The position numbers were made by a program, and so were the translations under genes. The notes under the pieces were generated by a model. The model worked only from the letters and a program-made list of their open reading frames with translations. It was not told the origin of the DNA and made no database searches. This document shows, piece after piece, positions 4,353 to 23,245 of a stretch of DNA of 64,000 nt; within the stretch, counting starts at the first letter, position 1, and the number at the start of each line of letters is the position of its first letter. The stretch is from Tribonema minus. Its lineage: Eukaryota; Sar; Xanthophyceae; Tribonematales; Tribonemataceae. The stretch lies in NCBI GenBank assembly GCA_017506865.1, contig JAFCMP010000535.1, positions 1 through 64,000 on the forward strand. Direction: 5' to 3'.

Positions 4353-7300
4353 ATGGACGGCGGCATGGGCGGCGGCGGCGGCGGCGGCGGGTGGGACCTG
4401 CAGGGCAACGAGGAGCGTGACGGCGTGCGCTTCTCGTGGAACGTGTGGCCGAGCAGCAAGCTGGAGGCGACGCGCATCGTCGTGCCCACGGGCTGCTTGT
4501 ACTCGCCGCTCAAGCGCCTCGAGGGCATGCCGCCCGCGCTCGCGTACGACCCGATCCGCTGCAACGGCTGCGGCGCGATACTGAACCCGTACGCGCAGGT
4601 GAGCGGGCGCGCGCACCCATAATGTGACATCACATCACAATATCACACATCACATCACATTACATCAATAAATGTATAGGCGTTCCAGGCACTCCTGCAG
4701 CCCGCTTCACTGACGCCGTCATGCGATCCGCTGCAACGGTTGAGGCGCCATGCTGAACTAGTTTGCGCAAGGGAGAGGCGCGCTGCTGCTGCGTGTGTGG
4801 CACCGCCGCTGCCTATTCCGGCCGTGTTGTCTGCGGTAGTGCTGCGGCGCAATACTGAACCCGTAAGCGCAGGCGAAAACAGGCAGCACTGCTGCACGCG
4901 CGGCTGCTACACTACCGCTGCCTGACTGCATTCCGGAAGTGTTCTCAGGAACAGTCCTGACTGCATTCCGGAAGTGTTCTCAGGAACAGTATTGATCCAG
5001 TAAACCCCTTGAAGAGAGGAGAGATGCTGGCTGAAGAGCAGAGTAAATGGGGCTTTCGCGGTTGTTTGTTGCGCGTTCTCTGTAGCGCTCTCGCGCGGTC
5101 CGCTCCAAACCGGTACGCGGCGCTACGATGCTGTCCGCTGAGCGCCGTACGCATCGAACGCGGCGCTGGTGGCGCGCTTCCCAGCTTCTTCTCGTCCATC
5201 TAGTAAATGCACCTTCCGCATTGTATGCTTCCCGGCGGTCAAGTGTTCTTCGCACAACTGCCTGCCGCTGCGTCAGGCAGACAATCGGCGCCTACTGCTG
5301 TCAGAGGAGTATGTGCGCCATGCACGCCGCAATGACGGGACCGCGTGCTGAGCACTGTCTAGACGCTGTTTAGTTTCAACCGCACGTCCTGTCGTGCGGG
5401 GTAAGGGGGGGGGGTCGGGCCTATGAGGTGCCTATTCCATCACACGGTGCGACAGCTTTGGAGTGATTGGTGGGGGGGTGGCGACGCCATACCTCGTACA
5501 TCAAGAGAATCGTACTGGCGCCGCCTCCCACGTCGGCCAGGTTGTAATTGTGCGCAGTGTCTTTGCGCCAGAACACCATGGCGCATATTGTGCAGGTCGT
5601 CCATTGAGGCAGCATTTCCGACGGCCGACCTCCTGAACTCCAAGTACCACAGCATGCAACAAAGCCTGAGATCTGATGATTACGCAGCGGAGTGCCCTTG
5701 CACGACTGCTGAAGAGTGCCAGTCAGCTGATTTGTTGCAGATTAACTACCGCAGCCCCCCCCCCCCCCCCCCCCCCCAGCATTCTGCCCTGTAGAGGCCT
5801 GCCGACCAACTACGTCCCCCTGCCCCCTTCCCTTGATTCTGCCTTGCCTATGCCTATGGACTGCCCCTCCCCCCCCCTCACCCCCTTCCTCCATCTGCCC
5901 CCCCCCTCGTAGATTGACTACCGCAGCAAGCTGTGGGCGTGCCCGTTCTGCATGAATCGCAACCACTTCCCTCCGCACTACGCCGAGAACATCTCCGAGA
6001 CCAACCTGCCCGCGGAGCTCATTCCGCAGTTCACCACCGTCGAGTACGAGCTCACGGCGCCCTCGCAAGGTATGCATGTATGCATTTACTATTAAAATGA
6101 TGACAACGCAGTAGGGTATGTATCGATGAATGTGTGCGCTGCCCACGGAGCTCGTCCTGCAGTTCACCACCGTCGAGTATGAGCTCATCGCGTCTTCGCG
6201 AGGCATGTAAGTTGGGGATTGCAAGCGACCGCTCTCCTGGTGCATACTAGCTTCAATTGCCAAACTTCAACCCTCACTGCCACCTGCGCATTCAGAAACT
6301 AACTTCAACTGCACAACTTCAACCACCTGCGCATTTAGAAAATAACTTCAACTTCACAACTTCAACCTTACTATAACCCTGCATAGCTCCCCCGCGTTCT
6401 TGTTTCTGGTGGACACGTGCATGCTAGAGGAGGAGCTGGAGCTCAACAATCAACTTCAATTCATCAACTTCAATTTCCTAACTTCAACTTTGCAGGCCCA
6501 CCCGCGTTCCTGTTCCTGCTGGACACGTGCATGCTGGATGAGGAGCTGGACCAGCTCATCAATCAACTTCAATTCACTAACTTCAATCCCCCAACTTCCA
6601 CTGTGCAGGCCCCCCCGCGTTCCTGTTCTTGGTGGACACGTGCATGCTGGAGGAGGAGCTGGACCAGCTCAAGGACAGCCTGCAGCAGACGCTCAACCTG
6701 CTCCCTGAGGACACGCTGGTGGGGCTGGTGACGTTTGGCACCAACGTCATGGTGCACGAACTGGGGTGAGAGGGCGCTCGCACACCTCAATACCTACCGC
6801 ATGTCAGTATACACGTACCGACATGGCCCAGTAAGGCTGTAGTACATGCATGCCCCCTTATGTCACTCAATCCTCAACACCTGCCGTATATCGACATATA
6901 CATACTTCTTGAAGTATATACATAGCTTAGTTTGGATGTAGATATAGGGTAGAAAGCTGTAGCCTGCAGCAGACGCTGAGAGGCTTAGCCTGCTGCGCAA
7001 AAACACGCAGGTGGTGCTGGTGACGTTCAGCACCAACGTCGTGATGCACGCACTTGAAGTTTGTGGGGATGCGCGCACGCACCATGAGGCCAAGTGCATT
7101 GCGTGTTTTACGCCCCGCCGCTGCGTACGCAGGCGCGCAGCTCGCGAACCTGCAGCAGCGCGCGCACGCTCGAACTCAACACAGCTGACCGCGCCCTGCG
7201 CACTCTCGCTGTGCAACGCACCCCACGCGCGTGCCCCGCAGCTTCGGCGACTGCCTCACACGCATTCACATCGCGTTTGAAGCTCGTGGCTGCAAAGCGC

Positions 7301-23245: not shown

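Follow-up and report, generated by a model that had tools for sequence, protein, structure and literature searches.

What kind of process fills an intron with copies of the exon edges that border it? The question is raised by a SEC23 gene of Tribonema minus (Xanthophyceae), which lies in the 64,000-nucleotide stretch of contig JAFCMP010000535.1 (assembly GCA_017506865.1, positions 1 to 64,000, forward strand) analyzed here and called the window. Long introns are usually attributed to transposons. A first-pass annotation of this gene proposed that its introns are built from decayed tandem copies of their own exon edges, splice sites included, and that they grew by tandem duplication across splice junctions. 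In our judgment, the introns probably grew via ordinary small tandem duplications, mostly of about 90-180 bp, falling anywhere in an intron and sometimes across its junctions; most likely no dedicated mechanism is at work, but an everyday mutational process tolerated by introns.

Joining the 19 SEC23 exons gives an uninterrupted reading frame of 785 codons, with GT-AG at all 18 introns, and five Pfam SEC23 domains are matched (zinc finger, trunk, beta-sandwich, helical, and gelsolin). In a phmmer search of the PDB, the top scorer is human Sec23A (residues 16-784 aligned with SEC23, E 3.1e-271); given an alignment of that extent, the exons of the model are very probably real. A SEC23 query against viral contigs gave no match.

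Copies of an exon edge within the adjacent intron, here called echoes, were sought by aligning a 60-nt exon-only query from each edge to its own intron and to the 17 wrong introns. Fifteen of the 36 exon edges, spread over 10 of the 18 introns, beat every wrong-intron control. Scores are 23-45 for the donor edges of introns 1, 2, 3, 4, 7, 8, 9, and 11, where wrong introns reach at most 16 (306 pairings), and 18-56 for the acceptor edges of introns 2, 3, 4, 7, 8, 10, and 12, where they reach at most 17 (306 pairings). The donor edge of intron 14, at 16, ties the wrong-intron maximum, making this a borderline eleventh intron. Own-intron reverse-complement scores reach at most 13 (donor) and 16 (acceptor), and 19 of the 36 edges have their strictly highest score in the own intron, with about 2 expected. 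When all 18 introns were dinucleotide shuffled for 100 rounds, the edges reaching 16 averaged 0.08 (donor) and 0.11 (acceptor); the top shuffle score, 18, ties with the real score of the intron 7 acceptor. The exon-edge echoes in SEC23 introns are thus confirmed as a real and striking observation. Echoes in at least 10 introns had been claimed, and 10 were found, or 11 counting intron 14. All nine introns named in the first-pass annotation as having donor echoes do have them, intron 14 weakly, as do seven of the eight named for acceptor echoes; in intron 1, the acceptor echo near 5740, a short near-exact stretch, reaches 13, with 12 for the best wrong intron, and stays unproven.

A catalogue drawn up with up to 120 nt of exon as query and a threshold score of 16 contains 37 echoes, 23 donor and 14 acceptor (Table 1). 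Control pairings of 120-nt queries with non-adjacent introns reach at least 16 in 4 of 272 donor and 6 of 272 acceptor cases, with a maximum of 19; the six echoes scoring 16-19 are therefore individually weak, and the 31 at 20 or above are firm. The exon-derived stretch measures 18-86 nt per echo (median 49), and 36 of the 37 end no more than 3 nt from the exon edge, the exception being 13960-13977. Copies are spaced 88-429 bp apart (median 155). The periods of about 30-185 bp first described hold at their upper end, with 29 of 37 spacings within 85-185 bp, whereas the 30-bp end is approached solely by a 23-bp, ten-copy array in intron 14. The largest array, said to have five or more echoes, has six (intron 11, the sixth weak). 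Introns 2, 3, 4, 7, and 8 carry both kinds, and in each of them all donor echoes precede all acceptor echoes, an order predicted by tandem growth from each end.

Table 1. Positions of SEC23, its exon-edge echoes, and echoes in a second gene (coordinates of the window)
Feature	Positions	Strand	Details	Basis
SEC23 gene	4353..23245	+	19 exons, 18 GT-AG introns, 785 aa	Gene model/frame, Pfam, PDB phmmer
Intron 1 donor array	4599..4872	+	Echoes 4724-4769, 4841-4872	60-nt score 30 vs wrong-intron maximum 16
Intron 2 donor echo	6139..6202	+	GC in place of GT	Catalogue, splice-site check
Intron 2 acceptor array	6386..6608	+	Echoes 6386-6446, 6496-6558; period ~113	Catalogue, TRF
Intron 3 donor echo	6961..7054	+	Donor dinucleotide gone	Catalogue, splice-site check
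Intron 3 acceptor array	7541..8020	+	Echoes 7541-7561 (weak, score 19), 7795-7817 (score 21)	
Intron 4 donor array	8163..8862	+	Echoes 8285-8319 (35/35 identical), 8400-8433, 8823-8862 (weak); all GT	
Intron 4 acceptor echo	8996..9218	+	Echo 8996-9069 plus stretch up to acceptor	Catalogue
Intron 7 donor array	10886..11254	+	Echoes 10952-10984, 11221-11254	Catalogue
Intron 7 acceptor-side tandem array	11713..12287	+	Sole exon-only pass 12055-12072 (score 18, weak)	TRF, self-BLAST, catalogue
Intron 8 donor array	12369..13030	+	Echoes 12487-12545, 12653-12711, 12815-12866, 12950-13030	Catalogue
Intron 8 acceptor array	13278..13751	+	Echoes 13278-13343, 13460-13522, 13573-13637; AG in all	
Intron 9 donor array	13914..14219	+	Echoes 13960-13977 (weak), 14073-14117, 14180-14219	Catalogue
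Intron 10 acceptor array	15225..15834	+	Echoes 15225-15296, 15384-15458, 15540-15614, 15691-15743	Catalogue, TRF
Intron 11 donor array	16001..16689	+	Six echoes within 16095-16689, sixth weak	Catalogue, TRF
Intron 12 acceptor echo	18079..18260	+	Echo 18079-18100 (22/22 identical) plus stretch up to acceptor	Catalogue
Intron 14 donor echo	19361..19400	+	Borderline (score 16)	60-nt test, catalogue
Second-gene exon	163..330	-	5' edge echoed	Boundaries by eye from frame and splice signals
Second-gene acceptor-side echoes	412..973	-	Echoes 412-461, 628-683, 771-799, 948-973	Scores 24, 24, 19, 18

Echo arrays span 37% of intron bp (29%, by subtraction, without the six weak echoes) and 21-87% of each echo-bearing intron (11 introns, intron 14 included). 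Introns 5, 6, 13, 15, 16, 17, and 18 carry no echo, and six of these seven are without any local direct repeat in a BLAST scan; the proposal that exon edges are the building material of the entire introns is not supported. Echo-bearing introns are longer (mean 1065 versus 688 bp, p = 0.027; 11 versus 7, with intron 14 among the 11), and so are exons with an echoed edge (mean 151 versus 87 bp, 11 versus 8 exons, p = 0.006). For the exons, a filter against whole-exon copies was considered and is not claimed; geometry may explain their length, since a short exon offers fewer copies that take in one edge only.

Repeats lying near each other are direct. Self-comparison of the whole window by BLAST returned 86 direct and 11 inverted pairs; 74 of the direct pairs are less than 1 kb apart, none 1-5 kb apart, and 12 farther, and a single inverted pair is closer than 1 kb. 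Eight exact tandem duplications with periods of 12-35 look fresh (simple short-period runs having been filtered out), two of them in SEC23 introns, at 4921 (intron 1) and at 16026 (intron 11, CATT-rich sequence). Three of the eight have 0 bp of overlap at the joint, four overlap by 2 bp, and one, a GGC-rich repeat, by 12 bp. Of the marks expected from break repair (direct, adjacent, and short repeats with little overlap at the joint), direct orientation and closeness are seen, and joint overlap was judged on these eight exact cases. In a full comparison of seven arrays, echoes generally resemble the real edge more than one another; several echoes of introns 8, 10, and 11 are nearer another echo than the exon, so later copying among echoes must likely be added. 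Close direct repeats, copies that run through the splice site, and an exon standing as approximate hub all speak for the part of the original proposal that has introns growing by tandem duplication across junctions.

How the copies have aged can be read against the exon. Core identities between copies range from 0.59 to 1.00, with one identical pair in intron 11. Divergence of the exon parts is 8.7% between echo and real exon and 15.0% between echo and echo (15 matched blocks each, partly the same); simulated donor-side arrays with a frozen exon and neutral copies arrived at 8.9% and 15.4% for one of the four rates simulated, the simulation being of donor arrays only, with a stricter BLAST cutoff than the matched-block comparison and no simple-repeat mask. 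Decay of the copied exon parts looks neutral-like. The intron-derived parts of the copies are 27-28% diverged, with 5.5-5.8 gap openings per 100, against simulated values of 19% and 3.7, and exon-derived gaps are fewer than simulated (1.0 and 1.9 versus 1.7 and 3.6). By this misfit, copied exon stretches are better preserved than the simple model predicts, which could be due to repeats internal to the introns, to the choosing of echoes by exon similarity, or to gene conversion from the exon. Decay against distance from the exon follows a trend only (rho -0.33, p = 0.067, 31 echoes).

Under growth by ordinary small tandem duplication, a duplication across a donor would turn an exon with its GT flank into that same exon and flank followed by the exon tail with a second GT flank, and the protein would survive as long as the first donor is used. 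Duplication across an acceptor would be the mirror image, in which the last acceptor must be used. The exon-joined copy would be frozen by selection on the protein, while the others would decay approximately neutrally and sometimes be re-duplicated, producing arrays. The duplications themselves would come from break repair, by the filling in of staggered breaks, rather than from slippage or unequal exchange. The spliceosome presumably ignores most echoed sites, which we infer to be decoys.

A more ambitious reading would make junction-crossing tandem duplication a main engine of intron growth genome-wide in this lineage, with decoy donors that may be disarmed by selection; we consider it doubtful. 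Ten of the 22 donor echoes have lost the T of GT, compared with a T loss of 11.5% in the copied exon parts; when likely shared events are merged by eye, the count is 8 of 20 (p = 0.001 versus 11.5%). Exon position -7 is lost as often as the T (50% versus 45%), and copies within one array are not independent; selection against decoy donors is therefore no more than a possibility.

Splice junctions might instead be the specific target of duplication, or of the retention of duplicates, through such routes as RNA-linked breaks or copy-back from spliced RNA. The better keeping of the exon parts of echoes than of their intron parts would fit such targeting, as would the strictest score, at which copies are found for 11 of 36 real edges versus 17.3% of pseudo-edges. 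At the working threshold, however, edges behave much like interior points: 14 of 36 lie inside local repeats versus 29.9% of 14,452 intron-interior points, and a matched alignment test finds copies no more than 500 bp away for 16 of 36 edges versus 32-33% of 1701 pseudo-edges per side. A frozen exon alone makes its own copies easier to recognize, so there is no need for targeting to splice sites, and we regard it as unlikely; a mild excess of duplication at exon edges is compatible with these counts.

We think it improbable that some transcripts use the echoes as alternative or mutually exclusive exon ends, even with many of their splice sites in good order. GT is intact in 12 of 22 donor echoes (GC in eight) and AG in 11 of 14 acceptor echoes. 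Scored with a small matrix made from the 18 real SEC23 sites, 12 of 22 donor echoes equal or exceed the weakest real donor, some in introns 4, 8, 9, and 11 equal the score of the real donor, and two acceptor echoes of intron 8 outscore the real acceptor; with echo sites scoring as high as real ones, tolerance of the echoes is not explained by weak sites. The copied exon sequence argues the other way. None of the 37 echoes includes a whole exon (the largest share is 79%); indels occur in 13, a net frameshift in 11, and an in-frame stop in 9. Mismatches at codon positions 1, 2, and 3 number 61/597, 55/608, and 86/603 (10.2, 9.0, and 14.3%), and this third-position excess, only about 1.5-fold (p = 0.017), is expected if selection acts on the real exon alone. 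Echo-echo divergence is 1.7 times that between echo and exon, near the value for simulated unconstrained copies. Tandem or mutually exclusive exons were also considered as a class and set aside, whole-exon copies with both splice sites and an open frame not having been found.

Chance similarity, low complexity, or an assembly artifact is very unlikely to account for the echoes. Simple repeats do occur in the introns, including CATT runs in the intron 11 array, but the wrong-intron, shuffled, and reverse-complement controls speak against chance, and most copies differ from one another, which misassembly of a single sequence does not bring about. As for sharing of the introner type, exon-edge queries reach at most 16-17 in the 306 wrong-intron pairings per side, and the distance classes of direct pairs given above (none at 1-5 kb, 12 beyond) describe this window. 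An origin of the introns by Rogers-type duplication, in which an exonic AGGT segment is copied, is scarcely credible. The window shows clear tandem duplication activity, but donor and acceptor surroundings of the same intron (90 nt each) are unlike (mean score 8.1, maximum 12, 18 introns, versus a mean of 8.5 for other pairs), with flank duplicates in 0 of 18 introns, although a very old origin could have decayed past the test.

Echoes and local repeats also occur beyond SEC23. A second gene, which runs toward the window edge, has an exon (163..330, no Pfam match) with echoes in its inferred 1713-bp upstream intron (331-2043); three of the four keep AG, and the exon used as a query against the 18 SEC23 introns scores at most 14. 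On the donor side of this gene, one match, with a score of 16, is too weak to count. The donor-style repeat test gives 18.2% in the first 3.9 kb, 4.1% at 23.3-27 kb, and 6.0% at 27.2-63 kb. Set against the 32-33% of SEC23 pseudo-edges, rates of 4-6% indicate that the duplication process is not uniform along the window and that repeats are concentrated in SEC23 and the neighboring second gene; transcription, GC content, or the youth of mobile-element-like DNA farther on are guesses as to the cause. The 23.3-28 kb region, that of an RWP-RK gene, showed no local repeat in the BLAST scan; a 609-aa single open frame there (25200-27029, minus strand) contains the RWP-RK domain (E 3.1e-16), and a 31-bp exact duplication lies at 23535. 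The RWP-RK family is typical of green algae and plants. Tandem duplications are also present at 33211-33706 (245 bp, 84%), 52000-52490 (228 bp, 82%), and 57875-58014 (74 bp, 91%); lying outside SEC23 and the second gene, they indicate that the process is not confined to the introns of those genes.

Several further sequence features of the window deserve record. Telomere-like CCCTAA runs are found at 8765, 11599, 14983-15022 (two runs head to head), 17269, 33455, 37265, and 56378, five of these eight being inside SEC23 introns 4, 7, 10, and 11; exact CCCTAA 12-mers number 10 in the window versus none in 100 shuffles. They could be scars of break repair, which is a guess. The 8-mer AACTTCAA has 29 occurrences on the plus strand of the window, 20 of them within the SEC23 gene, and by eye often stands in rows ahead of acceptors and acceptor echoes (introns 2 and 10). 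The CCTAGAGCTCTACGATC core or its complement recurs, also by eye, at about 17570-17600 (intron 12), 21890-21930 (intron 17), and 1955-2000 (second gene), and one 22-base form of this stretch gave no match to viral contigs. Pairs of closely similar coding-like sequences lie far apart at 34119-34337/52921-53148 (minus strand) and at 39041-39298 (minus)/54999-55160 (plus), possibly as mobile-element remains; 34119-34337, 52921-53148, and 39041-39298 have no Pfam match.

Parts of this picture have precedents elsewhere. The splice-donor minisatellite of human IFI6 (6-16, G1P3) and its unit structure were reportedly described by Turri et al. in 1995. According to the portions of the papers compared, two of its downstream repeat units serve as splice donor sites (PMC4526556), and the minisatellite is referenced again in PMC2572611. 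SEC23 resembles it in that repeat units sit at an exon end with the splice site included, and tandem units each including a splice site are found at the SEC23 junctions. In IFI6 the units act as several donors at one junction of one gene, with alternative donors used, as far as those portions describe it; SEC23, known from sequence, has 15 clear edges, donors as well as acceptors, and a median unit spacing of 155 bp, unlike that single-junction case.

Intron gain by tandem duplication is likewise in print. In a potato RdRp gene, a duplication crossing an intron-exon boundary copied the 3' splice signals (PMC4974935); in the part of that paper compared, the likeness to SEC23 lies in duplication across a junction, and the difference is that potato gained one new intron, whereas in SEC23 existing introns were apparently lengthened, with numerous serial copies that have since decayed. 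The Rogers/Hellsten model described in the same paper and the Drosophila cases (PMC2891723), as presented in the passages compared, share with SEC23 the derivation of intron sequence from a tandem duplication within the gene; what is duplicated in that model is coding sequence containing a proto-splice site, whereas the SEC23 unit already spans a working junction. For the duplications themselves, the CST-Pol alpha-primase route of break repair yields small tandem duplications (PMC8355091) that, in the sections compared, are short, direct, and head-to-tail like the SEC23 repeats; that pathway was demonstrated by inducing breaks in cells of human and mouse, and for SEC23 it would be a candidate. 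The Haematococcus lacustris genome has short tandem repeats in complex patterns over tens of kilobases and the telomere motif AACCCT (PMC7617258), which is also present inside the window; the text passages compared make no mention of exon-edge copies in introns.

The opinion that no named mechanism describes such arrays was too strong, given that break-repair duplication, intron gain by tandem duplication, and the IFI6 minisatellite with its multiple donors were each known singly. The novelty here lies in how many junctions of a single gene are involved and in existing introns having apparently been lengthened; a literature search through titles and abstract openings, with few subscription journals, brought up no arrays at many junctions of one gene. 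SEC23 would add another route of intron growth, repeated copying of the junction itself, in which the true exon is a frozen yardstick for measuring each copy. Copies of exon edges could mislead similarity-based gene predictors. The arrays are also a natural test of how the spliceosome chooses among near-identical sites. On the genome-wide reading judged doubtful above, introns of this lineage would hold old splice sites in ordered rows, with the donors in front and the acceptors behind; that order would leave no internal pseudo-exon, because a decoy pair could only remove an inner piece, and such nested removal would leave the outer, true splice pair to finish.
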